From Pseudomonas resinovorans NBRC 106553 (GTDB lineage: Bacteria > Pseudomonadota > Gammaproteobacteria > Pseudomonadales > Pseudomonadaceae), in contig NC_021499.1 in NCBI RefSeq assembly GCF_000412695.1, forward strand, positions 434,001 to 498,000: a stretch of 64,000 bases of DNA, given 5' to 3'. This document shows positions 2,954-52,789 of the stretch, one piece after another (the stretch's first letter is position 1; each line of letters begins with the position of its first letter). Position numbers and translations under genes: made by a program. The notes below the pieces were generated by a model that was not told the DNA's origin, did no database searches, and saw only the letters and a program-made list of their open reading frames with translations.

Positions 2954-3369
2954 GGGATATTTCCCCTTCAGTAGACATCCAGGTCAGCTACACGGAGCCA
3001 GATTGGGCGCTCGACGACGCCCAGCCTGGTGATGCCGACTGTCTTGCCTGTGTGGATAACAATGTTTCGAGAACCTGACAGCCCTCTGGCAGTGTTACGA
3101 AACCCATTCCCTGGGCGGGTTCAGCACCTCGGCCGGAGGTGCGCGTACTTCCGAAATTTCTTATTAGGCCGGCCTCTGCTTCGGGGGGAGGCCGCCGCTT
3201 GTGTTCTTCGGTCCGGAGCTGAGTGCTCGCGGTCTGTCGGTCCACGGGAACCGACAGCGACGAAATCGGGTGTCTCAACGATAAAGCCTTGAGGCCGGGG
3301 CAATTGTCGGTTTACGACGTCCATATGTTGCGCGACGACATGGCCTATGGATATCGCTGAATGCACGCA
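2954..3369. other. Intergenic region upstream of cbcV with two hairpins
   Basis: No credible gene. It should hold the cbcV promoter and the end of the upstream binding-protein transcript. Two perfect inverted repeats are visible: GCACCTC 3124-3130 with GAGGTGC 3136-3142, and GGCCTC 3171-3176 with GAGGCC 3188-3193. In minus-strand sense the second is followed by TAATAAGAAATTTC, so it could be a weak terminator. A perfect DnaA-box match on the reverse strand (TGTGGATAA) is at 3051-3059. Confidence 0.5.
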
Positions 3370-4671: not shown

Positions 4672-6048
4672 GTGGCTATCAGCGTGTTCGACCTGTTCAA
4701 GATCGGTATCGGCCCCTCCAGTTCGCATACCGTGGGCCCGATGCGGGCGGCGGCGCAGTTCGCCACGGCGCTGCGCGAGGGTGGGCTGCTGGCGCAGGTG
4801 CGGCGGGTCGAGGTGCGTCTGTACGGCTCGCTGTCGGCCACCGGCGTCGGCCACGGCACCGACCGCGCGACCCTGCTGGGGCTGATGGGCGAATGGCCGG
4901 ACCAGATCGAACCCAAGCAGATCGGTCCGCGCATCCAGGCCCTGCAGGAATGCCGCGAGCTGTTGCTCGGCGGCACGCATCCGGTGCCTTTCGAGTGGCA
5001 ACGCGACCTGCTGCTGCTGGAGGAAAACCTGCCCTATCACCCCAACGCCATGACCCTGATCGTCTTCGGCGAGGCCGGTGAACTGCACCGCGACACCTAC
5101 TACTCCATCGGCGGCGGCTTCGTCGTCGACGAGGCCCAGGCGCAAGCCGGCCAGCTCGACCAGGACAGCACCGTGCTGCCCTACGACTTTTCCAGCGGCG
5201 AGGAACTGCTGCGGCTCTGCCAGCGCCACAACCTGCGCGTCGCCGAGCTGATGCTGGCCAACGAGAAGGCCTGGCGCAGCGAGGCGGAGATCCGCGCCGG
5301 GCTGCTGAAACTCTGGGACGCCATGCAGGAATGCGTGACCAACGGCCTGGGCCAGGAGGGCATCCTGCCCGGCGGGCTGAACGTGCGCCGGCGTGCCGCG
5401 CGGCTGCACCGCAGCCTGCAGGAACTGGGCAAGCCGAACGTCATCGGCAGCACCATGAGCGCCATGGAGTGGGTGAACCTCTACGCCCTGGCAGTGAACG
5501 AGGAAAACGCCGCCGGCGGGCGCATGGTGACCGCGCCCACCAATGGCGCGGCGGGGATCATCCCGGCGGTGCTGCACTACTACATGCGCTTCAACCCCGA
5601 GGCCAGCGAGGACGACGTGGTGAACTTCTTCCTCGGCGCCGCGGCGGTGGGCATCCTGTGCAAGAAGAACGCCTCGATCTCCGGCGCCGAAGTGGGCTGC
5701 CAGGGCGAGGTGGGCTCGGCCTGCGCGATGGCGGCGGCGGGCCTGGCGGAAGTGCTGGGGGCGACTCCCGCGCAGCTGGAGAACGCGGCGGAGATCGGCC
5801 TGGAACACAACCTGGGGCTGACCTGCGACCCGGTGGGCGGGCTGGTGCAGGTGCCCTGCATCGAGCGCAACGCGATCGCCGCGGTGAAGGCGATCAACGC
5901 GGCGCAGATGGCCCTGCGCGGCGACGGCGAACACTTCATCTCGCTGGACCAGGCGATCCGCACCATGCGCGACACCGGCGCCGACATGCACGACAAGTAC
6001 AAGGAAACCTCCCGCGGCGGCCTTGCCGTGAGCGCGGTGGAATGCTGA
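4672..6048 (+). CDS. sdaB: L-serine ammonia-lyase (iron-sulfur dependent)
   Basis: Deaminates L-serine to pyruvate and ammonia, the exit step of betaine-derived glycine/serine into central metabolism. Start is the GTG at 4672 ([20 protein letters not shown]), giving 458 aa, the normal length; GGAG at 4661-4664 is 7 bases upstream. The N-terminal beta domain carries the [12 protein letters not shown] motif; the C-terminal alpha domain has the conserved Cys in [28 protein letters not shown] and a further Cys in [18 protein letters not shown] that would bind the [4Fe-4S] cluster. Lies directly before gbdR. A deleted second copy of this gene lies at 50231-50332. Confidence 0.95.
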
Positions 6049-6449: not shown

Positions 6450-7553
6450 ATGTCACAGTTCAATCAAGGGGCGCAACCCCAGAACCGTGTTCCCCAGTCC
6501 ATCGGTTTCCTCCTGTTGGACAACTTCACCCTGATTTCCCTGGCGTCCGCGGTGGAACCGCTGCGCATGGCCAACCACCTCTCCGGCCGCGAACTCTACC
6601 GTTGGCACACCCTCAGCCAGGAAGGCCGACCGGTCAGCGCCAGCGACGGCCTGCAGATCACCCCCGACAGCGCCCTGGATAACAGCCCGGCCCTGGATGC
6701 GGTGATCGTCTGTGGCGGTGTCGACATCCAGCACAGCGTCACTCGCGAACACGTGCAATGGCTGCAGCAGCAGGCCCGTCATGGTCGCCAGCTCGGCGCC
6801 GTGTGCACCGGCAGCTGGGCGCTGGCCAAGGCCGGCCTGCTCGACGGCTTCGAGTGCAGCGTGCACTGGGAGTGCCTGGCGGCCATGCAGGAAGCCTTCC
6901 CCCGCGCCGGCATCAGCACCCGGCTGTTCTCCATCGACCGCAACCGCTACACCTCGTCCGGCGGCACCGCGCCGATGGACATGGTGCTGCACCTGATCGC
7001 CCGCGAGCATGGTCGCGAACTGGCCGCGGCGATCTCCGAGATGTTCATCTACGAGCGCATCCGCAACGAGCAGGACCACCAGCGTGTGCCGCTCAAGCAC
7101 ATGCTCGGCACCAACCAGCCGAAGCTGCAGGAAATCGTCGCGCTGATGGAGGCCAACCTGGAGGAGCCCATCGACCTCGACGAGCTGGCTTGCTACGTCG
7201 ACGTCTCGCGTCGCCAGCTGGAGCGCCTGTTCCAGAAGTACCTGCACTGCTCGCCGTCGCGCTATTACCTCAAGCTGCGCCTGATCCGCGCGCGCCAGCT
7301 GCTGAAGCAGACCGCCATGTCCATCATCGAAGTGGCGTCGGTGTGCGGCTTCGTTTCCACCCCGCACTTCTCCAAGTGCTACCGCGAGTACTTCGGCATT
7401 CCGCCTCGTGACGAGCGCGCCGGCCAGAACGCCAACGTGGTCGCCCTGATGCCGGTGCCGGACGAGCTGGTGCGCAACGCACCGTCCACCGCCGGCGTGG
7501 CCCTGAGCCGCGCCCAGGGCGAGTCAACCTTCGCCAGCGTGCGAGTGGTCTGA
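6450..7553 (+). CDS. gbdR: Betaine/dimethylglycine-responsive AraC regulator GbdR
   Basis: Transcription activator of betaine catabolism, 367 aa, matching the known GbdR length. The start is the ATG at 6450 (MSQFNQGAQPQN), with GAGG 9 bases upstream; the longer frame from 6372 is rejected. Residues about 20-190 form a GATase1-like ligand domain with the elbow GAVCTGSWALAKAGLL and the SVHWE and SSGGTAPMDM motifs. Residues about 225-330 form the AraC DNA-binding domain with two helix-turn-helix units (ELACYVDVSRRQLERLFQKY and VASVCGFVSTPHFSKCYREY). It follows sdaB and faces the dgc operon. A paralogue is at 50337-51335. Confidence 0.96.
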   Translation: MSQFNQGAQPQNRVPQSIGFLLLDNFTLISLASAVEPLRMANHLSGRELYRWHTLSQEGRPVSASDGLQITPDSALDNSPALDAVIVCGGVDIQHSVTREHVQWLQQQARHGRQLGAVCTGSWALAKAGLLDGFECSVHWECLAAMQEAFPRAGISTRLFSIDRNRYTSSGGTAPMDMVLHLIAREHGRELAAAISEMFIYERIRNEQDHQRVPLKHMLGTNQPKLQEIVALMEANLEEPIDLDELACYVDVSRRQLERLFQKYLHCSPSRYYLKLRLIRARQLLKQTAMSIIEVASVCGFVSTPHFSKCYREYFGIPPRDERAGQNANVVALMPVPDELVRNAPSTAGVALSRAQGESTFASVRVV

Positions 7554-48852: not shown

Positions 48853-49752
48853 TCAGGCTACCTCCCGGAAGCTTTGGTTGAAGTCCGCCAGCACCTGGGG
48901 GAACTGGTTGATGACGATGGACAGGTGCCCTTCCTGGGGATAAGTGCGCAGGTTCGCCCATGGCAGGTGCGCATGCAGGAACTGCCCCATGGCGGGTGGG
49001 ACGTGGCGGTCGAGGCTGCTCTGGTAGAGATGCACCGGAACCTGTATGTCCTCAAGGGCGAAGCGCCGAGGCCTGGCGATCAGCGCCGCCTCCGTGCAGG
49101 CGCCGCGTACGCCCTGGCGATAGGCCTCGGCAAGGAAGCTCGCGAAGCCTTCCGCCAGTGCCGGGTTGTCCGCCAGCGCGCGACGGTCGGGTTCTGCCAG
49201 GAGGCTTGCCAGGGTCTTCAGCGCCCGCTCCGGATAGCGTCGCAGCAGCCAGCGGTCCAACCCCAGCAGGGGGCTGGCAAGGGTTGGGTGGAGTCGGGCG
49301 AGGCCGAACATCAGGCGCAGTGCCGGCAACTGCTCGCGGCGCAGCGCGGGGATATCCATCGGTCCCATGCCGGCCAGCAGCCCGACATAGTCCAGGCGTG
49401 CGCCCAATTGGTGGGCGCAGGCCAGGGCGTAGGGGCCGCCGCAGGACACACCGACCACGCCGAAGCGCCGGTGGCCCAGGGTATCCGCCATGAAGCCCAG
49501 GTCCGCGGCCCAGTCGAGGATGCTGCGGCTGGCTTGATAATCGGAGTAGCCGAAGCCCGGCCGCTCCGCCGCCACCAGGCAGACCCCGGCGGCCAGGGCC
49601 TGCTCGTGATGCAGCGCAGCCTGCAGGCGGCTGCCGGGGAAGCCGTGGAAGTAGTACAGCGGACGCCCCGTGACGGCGCCGTAGAGCTGGTAGGCCAGGA
49701 GTCGGCCGTCGGGCAATCGCAGTTGCCGAGGTGTGCTGTCGGGTCCTTGCAT
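48853..49752 (-). CDS. Alpha/beta hydrolase
   Basis: 299 aa. Oxyanion segment YYFHGFPGSRLQ, nucleophile elbow VGVSCGGPYAL (Ser), and a probable catalytic His in YPQEGHLSIVI near the C-terminus; the acid is probably the Asp in SSLDRHVPP. No signal peptide. Upstream gene of a two-gene operon with the thioesterase. Its upstream region leads to the 478-base gap with a family E repeat. Confidence 0.87.
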   Translation of the reverse strand: MQGPDSTPRQLRLPDGRLLAYQLYGAVTGRPLYYFHGFPGSRLQAALHHEQALAAGVCLVAAERPGFGYSDYQASRSILDWAADLGFMADTLGHRRFGVVGVSCGGPYALACAHQLGARLDYVGLLAGMGPMDIPALRREQLPALRLMFGLARLHPTLASPLLGLDRWLLRRYPERALKTLASLLAEPDRRALADNPALAEGFASFLAEAYRQGVRGACTEAALIARPRRFALEDIQVPVHLYQSSLDRHVPPAMGQFLHAHLPWANLRTYPQEGHLSIVINQFPQVLADFNQSFREVA

Positions 49753-50230
49753 GGTGGTCTCTGCGTGACCGGGTGGTTAGCCCTGGTTCTGGGTTGGTCA
49801 GTATTTGAGCGTCGACAGTTATACCAACAGCCCCGGCCTCGCACGACGAGGGTTACAAAAATTAATCGAATGTTTAATTTAATGCTGGGCTTGTACGCTT
49901 TTTGATCGGTTCGGCGGGGGCCGCCCCGCATCCTTGCTTCAGGCTGGCATCCACACCTTATCCACAACTCGCTGCACAGATTCTGGGGGCAGCCGTTTCG
50001 GCAAGTGACTGAAAGGGCACAGGAAATGATCAATCGGCGGCACGCTGCGCAGCGTCTGGGGCCGGGCCAAGGCTCTACAGCTTATCGACAACATGATCCC
50101 CGGCTTTTGTGGGTGAGCCCGGTGGACAGGTGCATTTTCGGGTCGGATTCGGACAGATTCCTCCGCCACCGGATCGGGACAATCGGCTGCAAGGCGCTTT
50201 CCCGGGCGCAATCGCAGTCGAGGAACCGGC
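49753..50230. promoter_or_regulatory. Divergent region between hydrolase and sdaB remnant
   Basis: The stretch at 49850-49890 is AT-rich and probably holds the promoter of the hydrolase. A family E repeat covers about 49958-50103. ACAATCGGCTGCAA (50179-50192) matches 13 of 14 bases of ACAATCGGCCGCAA before glyA (55921-55934), a shared element of possible regulatory meaning. Transcription of the remnant and the gbdR paralogue should start here. Confidence 0.45.
49958..50103. repeat. Repeat family E, copy 4
   Basis: TTATCCACAACTCGCTGCAC AGATTCTGG, CAAGTGACTGAAAGGGCACA GGAAA, a GC-rich hairpin CACGCTGCGCAGCGT, and CTCTACAGCTTATCGACAAC. More diverged than copies 1 and 3, with one perfect TTATCCACA (49958-49966). 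Confidence 0.6.
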
Positions 50231-50332
50231 ATGGCCATCAGCGTGTTCGACCTGTTCAAGATCGGTATCGGCCCTTCGAGCTCACAGACCGTGGGCCCGA
50301 TGCGGGCGGTGGCGAGCGCGGTGGAGTGCTGA
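50231..50332 (+). pseudogene. sdaB remnant: 27 N-terminal codons joined to the last codons of sdaB
   Basis: Frame [20 protein letters not shown] then [17 protein letters not shown]. The first part is colinear with SdaB residues 1-26 (H19 changed to Q) and the last with its C-terminus (SAVEC-stop), so about 420 codons have been lost by an in-frame internal deletion. An intact ribosome binding site (GAGGA, 6 bases) remains. The stop is 4 bases from the ATG of the gbdR paralogue, whose own Shine-Dalgarno (GGAG) lies within the last codons. It may act as a leader peptide that couples translation. Confidence 0.9.
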
Positions 50333-50336
50333 CGCC

Positions 50337-51335
50337 ATGACCGCCTACCAAGCCCTCGTACCACCTCGGCAGTGCCTGGAGTCCATCGGCTTCCTGCTGC
50401 TGGATGACTTCAGCCTGTTCGCTCTGGCGGGCGCCCTGGAACCCCTGCGCCTGGCCAATCAGCTGTCCGGCCAGAGCCTCTACCGCTGGCGCACCCTGAC
50501 CCTCGACGGCGCCCCGGTGCGCGCCGCTAACGGCATGCAGGTGGCGCCCGACGACGCGCTCGCCGAGGCGCCGGATGCGCTGATCCTCTGCGGCGGCGAC
50601 GGCCCCGGCTGCGACGTGCCCCCGCGCCTGCCGGAACGCCTGCGAGAGTTGGCCGGCCAAGGCGTGCACCTGGGCGCCCTCGGCTCGGCCTCCCGGGTGC
50701 TGGCCGAGGCCGGCTTGCTGCAAGGCTACGAATGCAGCCCGGCCTGGGCCTGCAGGGTCGAGCTGCGTGAGCGCTTCCCCGGCATCGCCCTGAGCTCCCA
50801 GCCCTATGTGCTGGACCGCGACCGCTACACCGCCGTCGGCGGTAGCGCATCCCTGGAACTGATGCTGCAACTGATCGGCTGCAACCAGGGCCCGGCGTTG
50901 CTCGGCGCCATCAGCGAGACCCTGGCCTTCGGCCAGTTGCGCAGCGAACCCTCGCCACCTCGGCTGACCCTGGCGTCGGCCCTGGCCAGCGCGCAGCCGA
51001 AGTTGCAGGAGGTGATCGCGCTGATGGAGGCGAACCTGGAAGAGCCCATCGACCTGGACGAGCTGGCGAGCTTCATCGAACTGTCGCGACGTCAGTTGGA
51101 GCGGCTGTTCCAGAAATACCTGCGCTGCTCGCCGTCGCGCTATTACCTCAAGCTGCGCCTGTTGCGTGCCCGCCAACTGCTGCGCCAGACCGCGTTGCCG
51201 GTGGTGCAGGTGGCCTTCGGCTGCGGCTTCCTCTCGGCGCAGAACTTCTCCAAGTGCTACCGCGAGCATTTCGGCATCCCGCCCAGCAACGAGCGGCTGG
51301 ACAAGCCCCGGCTCTGCCGCGCCGCCATGCACTGA
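50337..51335 (+). CDS. GbdR paralogue, AraC/GATase1-like regulator
   Basis: 332 aa from the ATG at 50337 (MTAYQALVPP); the frame open upstream to 50109 is not real. The C-terminal AraC domain is nearly the same as in GbdR (LMEANLEEPIDLDELASF, SRRQLERLFQKYLRCSPSRY). The ligand domain is diverged: the elbow reads GALGSASRVLAEAGLL instead of GAVCTGSWALAKAGLL, and the SVHWE motif is SPAWA. A changed ligand but similar DNA target is suggested. Placed before creatinase with a strong terminator between; probable regulator of creatine or sarcosine use. Confidence 0.9.
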   Translation: MTAYQALVPPRQCLESIGFLLLDDFSLFALAGALEPLRLANQLSGQSLYRWRTLTLDGAPVRAANGMQVAPDDALAEAPDALILCGGDGPGCDVPPRLPERLRELAGQGVHLGALGSASRVLAEAGLLQGYECSPAWACRVELRERFPGIALSSQPYVLDRDRYTAVGGSASLELMLQLIGCNQGPALLGAISETLAFGQLRSEPSPPRLTLASALASAQPKLQEVIALMEANLEEPIDLDELASFIELSRRQLERLFQKYLRCSPSRYYLKLRLLRARQLLRQTALPVVQVAFGCGFLSAQNFSKCYREHFGIPPSNERLDKPRLCRAAMH

Positions 51336-51353
51336 CAACCCTTGGCACCACTT

Positions 51354-51397
51354 CGGGCCCGCCCGTGCCTGGCAGCACGGTCCGGGCCCGTTTTTTT
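51354..51397 (+). terminator. Terminator of the gbdR paralogue
   Basis: CGGGCCCG (51354-51361), CCGTGC and GCACGG inner stem, CGGGCCCG (51383-51390), then TTTTTTT (51391-51397). Strong intrinsic terminator, so the creatinase gene has its own promoter in 51398-51577. Confidence 0.93.
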
Positions 51398-51577
51398 GTT
51401 GTGTCGGTTGGCTATTTCCTTGCAGGGGCGAATCCTCGTTCCGGCCACCCCAGCGGATCTGACCAACTTCGGGTCGGATACGTACAAAAAACGCCCCGGA
51501 CCTTCTGTTGCAATGCAATCCAACGGCCCGCCAATCCGGTGTGTCGAGTCAGTGGAAAACAACAAGGGTCCACCGCC

Positions 51578-52789
51578 ATGCAAATGCCCAAGACGCTCCG
51601 CATCCGTAACGGCGAGAAGGTCAAAGCCACCTTCTCCGCCCAGGAATACGCCAATCGCCAAGCCAGGCTGCGTGCCCATCTGGCGGCGGAGAACATCGAC
51701 GCCGCGATCTTCACCTCCTACCACAACATCAACTACTACTCCGACTTCCTCTACTGCTCCTTCGGCCGCCCCTACGCCCTGGTGGTGACCCAGGACGACG
51801 TGATCAGCATCAGCGCCAACATCGACGGCGGCCAGCCCTGGCGCCGCACCCAGGGCACCGACAACATCGTCTACACCGACTGGCAGCGCGACAACTACTT
51901 CGTCGCCATCCAGCAGGCACTGCCCCGCGCCCGCCGCATCGGTATCGAGGCGGACCACCTGAACCTGCAGAACCGCGACAAGCTGGCCGCCCGCTACCCC
52001 GAGGCCGAGCTGGTGGACGTGGCCGCCGCCTGCATGCGCATGCGCATGATCAAGTCCGCCGAGGAGCATGTGATGATCCGCCACGGTGCGCGCATCGCCG
52101 ACATCGGCGGCGCGGCGGTGGTGGAAGCCCTGCGCGACCAGGTGCCGGAGTACGAAGTGGCGCTGCACGCCACCCAGGCCATGGTCCGCGCCATCGCCGA
52201 CACCTTCGAGGACGTCGAGCTGATGGACACCTGGACCTGGTTCCAGTCCGGCATCAACACCGACGGCGCGCACAACCCGGTGACCACCCGCAAGGTGAAC
52301 AAGGGCGACATCCTCAGCCTCAACTGCTTCCCGATGATCGCCGGCTACTACACCGCACTGGAGCGCACCCTGTTCCTCGACCATTGCTCGGACGACCACC
52401 TGCGCCTGTGGCAGGTCAACGTCGAGGTGCACGAGGCCGGCCTGAAGCTGATCAAGCCCGGCGCGCGCTGCAGCGACATCGCCCGCGAGCTCAACGAGAT
52501 CTTCCTCAAGCACGACCTGCTGCAATACCGCACCTTCGGTTATGGCCACTCCTTCGGCACCCTCAGCCACTACTACGGCCGCGAGGCCGGGCTGGAACTG
52601 CGGGAGGACATCGACACCGTGCTGGAACCGGGCATGGTGGTTTCCATCGAGCCGATGATCATGCTGCCGGAAGGCCTGCCGGGCGCCGGTGGCTACCGCG
52701 AGCACGACATCCTCATCGTCAACGAGAACGGCGCGGAGAACATCACCAAGTTCCCCTACGGCCCGGAGAAAAACATCATCCGCAAATGA
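51578..52789 (+). CDS. Creatinase (creatine amidinohydrolase)
   Basis: 403 aa, the exact length of P. putida creatinase, from the ATG at 51578 (MQMPKTLRIR). Hydrolyses creatine to sarcosine and urea. The pita-bread (M24) fold residues reported for creatinase all fall at the same positions: R64, H232 (DGAHNPVTT), E262, R335 and E358. No metal-binding pentad of true M24 peptidases is needed or seen. The sarcosine formed would go to SoxBDAG 4 kb away. No urease or urea carrier is in view. Confidence 0.93.
   Translation: MQMPKTLRIRNGEKVKATFSAQEYANRQARLRAHLAAENIDAAIFTSYHNINYYSDFLYCSFGRPYALVVTQDDVISISANIDGGQPWRRTQGTDNIVYTDWQRDNYFVAIQQALPRARRIGIEADHLNLQNRDKLAARYPEAELVDVAAACMRMRMIKSAEEHVMIRHGARIADIGGAAVVEALRDQVPEYEVALHATQAMVRAIADTFEDVELMDTWTWFQSGINTDGAHNPVTTRKVNKGDILSLNCFPMIAGYYTALERTLFLDHCSDDHLRLWQVNVEVHEAGLKLIKPGARCSDIARELNEIFLKHDLLQYRTFGYGHSFGTLSHYYGREAGLELREDIDTVLEPGMVVSIEPMIMLPEGLPGAGGYREHDILIVNENGAENITKFPYGPEKNIIRK

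Follow-up and report, generated by a model that had tools for sequence, protein, structure and literature searches.

A 33-codon frame upstream of a CahR-like regulator gene in Pseudomonas resinovorans CA10 reads as the remnant of a second sdaB gene

We analysed a stretch of 64,000 nt from the chromosome of P. resinovorans CA10 (NBRC 106553; NC_021499.1, positions 434,001 to 498,000; hereafter the window), in which a frame of 33 codons plus stop (50231..50332, + strand) is the derived remnant, left by an internal deletion, of a second sdaB gene (copy B). The explanation that we favour, and hold to be likely, is an old duplication followed by one in-frame deletion in the CA10 branch, which left a stub with inherited, passive coupling to the next gene and a peptide without function. 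Comparison of the sequences establishes that the deletion took place and is derived, that the spacing is inherited and that intact relatives exist.

The intact sdaB of the window, copy A (458 aa; 4672..6048, + strand), lies 5' of gbdR (367 aa; 6450..7553, + strand), both identified by domain scan. The stub lies 5' of another regulator gene (332 aa; 50337..51335, + strand), whose product carries a DJ-1/PfpI domain and an AraC helix-turn-helix, as expected of a GATase-1-like AraC regulator. Domains and identity mark this gene as a gbdR paralogue, and its position 5' of a creatinase-like gene, creA (403 aa; 51578..52789, + strand; Pfam Creatinase_N and Peptidase_M24), makes it CahR-like. The original prediction, made from the letters of the window, held that the two ends of sdaB are fused in frame before this regulator, and the alignments bear this out. 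In a whole-genome search the stub DNA matched the window sdaB (4672-6048) at 92% over 83 nt (E 1.7e-27), and the 33-aa product matched Pfam SDH_beta (E 1.8e-12). Only 26 of the 155 SDH_beta positions are left in the stub, and SDH_alpha, which spans residues 186-452 of the intact protein, has no match in it, indicating that most of the enzyme has been lost. In all, copy B has gone from 1377 nt to 102 nt, so that 1275 nt (425 codons) are missing.

The final 18 nt of the stub (AGCGCGGTGGAGTGCTGA) are those of an sdaB 3' end; they differ at one position from copy A of the window and at none from the second copy of genome G010. By itself, this tail does not match the window sdaB significantly (19 nt, E 0.53). 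Its assignment is nevertheless secure because of its place, since a 32-nt segment made up of the tail and the regulator start matches the same junction in G010 at 97% (E 2.8e-8). On the simplest reading, the stub would consist of sdaB codons 1-28 (50231..50314), with H19Q and A27V relative to the other copies, joined to the last five codons and the stop (50315..50332), which by tail comparison are of the B type (AVEC, with GTGGAG). The prediction had counted 26 retained N-terminal codons; 28 are kept, with codon 27 changed from GCG to GTG before the terminal SAVEC and stop. Two deletions without a substitution at the junction would be less parsimonious than one deletion plus one substitution, and because such a junction is possible the breakpoint is placed only to within a few bases. 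The signals around the stub are as predicted. Its stop lies 4 nt 5' of the regulator ATG (50337), the sdaB 3' end contains GGAG (50323..50326), a plausible Shine-Dalgarno of the regulator, and GAGGAA (50220..50225), the putative ribosome-binding site of copy B, is kept 5' of the stub.

The remnant reading depends on what relatives have at this position, and there we found an intact sdaB orthologue. Eighteen genomes of the genus were examined, CA10 included; 11 have the 50337-51335 regulator as distinct from gbdR itself, and seven have no such regulator. In nine of the ten congeners with the regulator, copy B lies directly 5' of it: whole in G003, G010 and G011, whole in G014 and G016 but for a few initial codons beyond the contig end, and as a 3' part reaching to the contig edge in G005, G006, G012 and G001. 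The tenth, G002, has the GGTCGGATTCGGACA block and no sdaB sequence between it and the regulator. The short frame itself occurs in CA10 only, that is, in one of the 11 genomes with the regulator. The gap between the sdaB stop and the regulator ATG is 4 nt in eight of the nine congeners with a B tail, and the same fraction of visible tails contains GTGGAG; in G001 the gap is 13 nt and the tail has GTCGAG, with GGGGGG after the stop. Because they are present in eight of nine congeners, the 4-nt gap and the regulator Shine-Dalgarno of CA10 come from the intact operon. GGGGAA or GAGGAA precedes all nine congener B copies at the same position, and creA follows the regulator in 11/11 genomes (in G012 up to the contig edge).

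In a midpoint-rooted tree of a 20-kb region around rpoB, of which about 17 kb was used, CA10 grouped with G010, G011, G006 and G015 (SH-aLRT 82 for the grouping). This tree replaced one of rpoB alone, which was dropped with 4/15 inner branches well supported. Three of the four genomes in the clade beside CA10 have copy B (G010, G011, and G006 at contig edges), and G015 is without such a regulator. We also observed that the regulator paralogue is only 264 aa long in G003, G005, G010, G011, G006 and G012 (loci L187, L189, L193, L195, L200 and L204). About 70 residues, part of the DJ-1/PfpI domain, are gone at a shared place, and the helix-turn-helix part is well conserved (domains scanned in G010); these genomes still have sdaB copy B and creA. 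The scattering of the shortened regulator on the species tree hints at exchange between species or repeated deletion. A tree of the regulator C-terminal part, tried as a test of a single origin, was too weak, with 2/8 inner branches well supported.

Outside the genus, a search of 398 family genomes (the 18 of the genus included) used a regulator cut-off of E 1e-112 or better, which also excludes the six shortened regulators of the genus. Twelve genomes passed, seven of them from outside the genus. sdaB stands 5' of the regulator in six of these seven; it is complete in G088, G095, G102, G170 and G307, and the G026 locus ends within it. It may be missing in G154, because about 100 nt upstream are seen there and the best sdaB in that genome reaches only 64%. 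Partial sdaB sequences at contig edges also precede the regulator in L039, P. borbori L040 and P. benzenivorans L041; P. laurentiana L042 has the regulator and creA, with no sdaB within 6 kb upstream. A further 75 loci, with a weaker regulator match (at most 57%) and no creA, are read as gbdR. The copy B tail is AIEC in four of five cases outside the genus and some 30 nt separate sdaB from the regulator in G088, so that the tight joint with its GTGGAG tail looks genus-specific. The gene order sdaB-regulator-creA is common to other genera; on these comparisons the intact module is the old state and the CA10 stub the derived one.

The 92% identity of the stub 5' end to the local sdaB would also fit a recent sdaB-gbdR duplication in this strain, followed by deletion. 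We consider this very improbable, given that the two regulators of the window are only 53% identical, that the sdaB-regulator-creA order is shared with other genera, and that copy B sits at the same place in congeners with a start codon of its own. The start is GTG in 17/17 A copies and ATG in 9/9 B copies; contig-edge copies were assigned to B from the block upstream of them, which left their partners as A. The module duplication and subsequent deletion that had been predicted are thus upheld by the second sdaB at the same place in relatives; the regulator divergence points to a duplication older than the sdaB similarity suggests.

The A and B copies of sdaB are 97.9-99.7% identical within a genome (five genomes compared; in G014 and G016, where both copies touch contig edges, near-identity may partly reflect the assembler). 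Across species, identity is 86.9-95.1% inside the main group and 82.7-85.8% from that group to G004, G008 and G017. Synonymous divergence (dS) is 0.007-0.069 within those five congener genomes and 0.14-0.35 between them. In other genera, dS between A and B is 0.015 in G088 and 0.166 in G307, the last exchange being older in G307 by this measure; G003, G010, G011, G088 and G307 are free of the contig-edge caveat. In the sdaB tree all seven A/B pairs, including two from other genera and, with that caveat, G014 and G016, group by genome (100/100). The copies lie 43-46 kb apart in the four long-contig genus genomes (G003, G010, G011 and, counting the stub, CA10), 1.47 Mb apart in G088 and 1.95 Mb apart in G307. 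In G003, G010 and G011 the high A/B match begins at base 2 of the start codon and ends with the stop or one base later, and beyond the sdaB reading frame only separate matches of 70-81% were found, in the regulator genes. The tails also differ by copy, AIEC in 12/13 A copies and AVEC in 5/5 B copies compared. A fresh duplication in each genome is excluded, because the place of copy B is fixed and start codons and tails are copy-specific. Gene conversion seems the natural explanation for the likeness of A and B, and the sdaB copies would look young because it keeps them alike. The loci concerned are the window gene at 4672-6048 and copy B in L187, L193, L195, L206 and L210, together with the pairs L265/L269 and L266/L270. 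In CA10, copy A ends in the B-type AVEC tail (6028-6048), unlike 12/12 other A copies compared, which points to overwriting of this end by copy B at a time before the deletion.

Concerted evolution by gene conversion is known from the tuf genes and reportedly also shapes duplicated rRNA operons; there, as here, a copy resembles its partner in the genome more closely than its counterparts in other species. The sdaB case differs in that it concerns a catabolic enzyme gene, in that homology ends at the reading frame, and in that start codons and tails remain copy-specific.

Near-identical copies can collapse during assembly, and contigs do break inside sdaB copies in several draft genomes of the genus, so we weighed whether the deletion is such an artefact. 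The CA10 chromosome is one contig of 6,285,863 bases, published as complete (PMC3735057); 4 kb from the second contig of this genome (198,965 bases) matches plasmid pCAR1 at 100%. A collapse would create neither the four private substitutions of the stub nor a tail one base off copy A. Because of these substitutions and the single 6.29-Mb contig, we regard misassembly as exceedingly unlikely.

The original prediction further proposed that the stub was retained as a selected leader or coupling frame, the translation of which would open the regulator start and set the amount of regulator. Several features speak for such a role: the ribosome-binding site is good, the fusion is in frame, the stop is 4 nt away from the regulator ATG, and the stub contains the Shine-Dalgarno of the regulator. 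In addition, the two start regions can pair, and the regulator AUG is predicted to be almost fully paired in the long leader (50200-50396; unpaired probability 0.02). We nevertheless consider a selected leader unlikely. The intact operon already has this spacing and this Shine-Dalgarno, and in G002 an unchanged regulator start, ATGACCGCCTA, occurs without any such frame, an observation that the prediction had itself named as evidence against a leader. In a local segment from -60 to +60 the AUG is predicted to be 93% unpaired, so that the prediction of accessibility depends on the stretch chosen (2% versus 93%). The whole leader folded no better than its shuffles (z 0.18; 106/200 shuffles as stable). 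Pairing of the stub start with the regulator start (-24.2 kcal/mol) was equalled by 106/2000 shuffles and was similar in three intact relatives (-21.8 to -23.8 kcal/mol), in which 1.4 kb separates the two sites. The idea that the start of the stub sequesters the regulator start was rejected as not beyond chance.

The coding sequence of the stub gave the same picture. Compared with 26 other sdaB 5' ends of the genus, it has four private changes, two synonymous in addition to H19Q and A27V, and His19 is invariant in all 26 others. When four random substitutions were simulated, the frame stayed open in 76% of cases, or in 50% if one change in ten was an indel. That two of the four changes alter the amino acid is within chance (expected fraction 0.72, P 0.31) and does not prove relaxed constraint. 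Among the 11 genomes with the regulator, we found no short frame kept in relatives with amino-acid constraint. Selection as a leader is therefore unsupported: G002 does without the frame, His19 has not been kept, and neither the open frame nor the fold is out of the ordinary. A variant of this idea would have conversion keep the interiors of the two copies alike and selection hold the ends of copy B, the stub then being a minimal coupling leader that replaces the enzyme gene in setting regulator translation. Its basis is that the CA10 deletion removed the interior and kept both B ends, the ATG start and the GTGGAG tail; we think it improbable. Ribosomes on the stub may still help to start the regulator in CA10, as ribosomes leaving the intact sdaB may have done. 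Against our preferred reading, an old duplication followed by decay of copy B, we counted that the deletion preserved the frame, which a random deletion does one time in three, and that both B-specific ends are kept. We also counted that sdaB before this type of regulator is absent in G002 and in P. laurentiana L042 (within 6 kb) and doubtful in G154.

The upstream region of the old unit is likewise retained. A pattern search gave a putative GbdR/CahR-type regulator site, the GGTCGGATTCGGACA block (50141..50155, + strand), 5' of the copy B/regulator unit; this pattern lies 5' of sdaB-B or the regulator in 8/11 genus genomes, CA10 included, with near variants in G001, G003 and G006. A second candidate site, GGTCGGATACGTACA (51472-51486), precedes creA, and its pattern is present in 11/11 genus genomes. 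When seven loci from outside the genus were scanned for both blocks, the creA type was found in three and neither in four, these being short loci with little upstream DNA. A scan of 49750-51650 gave neither a consensus sigma-70 promoter nor a terminator; shuffled sequences yield 0.2 and 1.4, respectively. The word TTATCCACA, which we take to be a DnaA-box word, occurs at 49958-49966, 5' of the unit, and is also found upstream in G002. The window holds three other copies, at 3051 (- strand), 33455 and 43009.

CahR regulates creatine use in Pseudomonas, and a CahR-regulated creatine utilisation system was reportedly described in P. putida KT2440 by Hinkel et al. in 2022. We liken the window regulator to CahR by type and position, as it is of the AraC/GATase-1 type and lies 5' of a creatinase-like gene. 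The sdaB-gbdR neighbourhood of Pseudomonas (e.g., P. aeruginosa PA7, L052) likewise has sdaB 5' of a GATase-1/AraC regulator. There, sdaB is intact and lies hundreds of bases from gbdR, whereas copy B of CA10 is tightly joined to its regulator and gutted. The likeness extends to GGTCGC-type half-sites in related regulators: those of CdhR are said to resemble GbdR sites (PMC5806209). Titles and the starts of abstracts, mostly from outside subscription journals, yielded no account of an sdaB gene preceding a regulator of this kind or of the loss of that gene in CA10, and no treatment of this stub or of sdaB gene conversion.

Taken together, an old duplication would have given two modules, sdaB-gbdR and sdaB-(creatine-type regulator)-creA. 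In the branch leading to P. resinovorans CA10, a carbazole-degrading soil bacterium, one in-frame deletion of 1275 nt would then have taken the interior of the second sdaB. The second enzyme copy is lost, with copy A and two more distant paralogues (62-63% identical) remaining in CA10. At the site of copy B, CA10 retains the former upstream region, the start of sdaB together with its ribosome-binding site, and a final 18 nt that are probably useful because the regulator has its ribosome-binding site there. The stub probably continues to be translated, into a peptide that presumably has no function of its own. Ribosomes would end 4 nt before the regulator start, as in the intact operon, and any coupling would for that reason be inherited and passive.

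What might pass for a leader peptide in CA10 is thus most probably left over from a deletion; it has the look of a gene in ordinary decay, not of a leader built for the purpose. A good ribosome-binding site, a neatly placed stop and spacing suited to coupling do not by themselves make a short frame a working leader, because a gutted gene can pass on all three. Concerted evolution seems to link the two sdaB copies as far as the ends of the reading frame, where their homology stops, and in CA10 one of the pair would have dropped out of this exchange.
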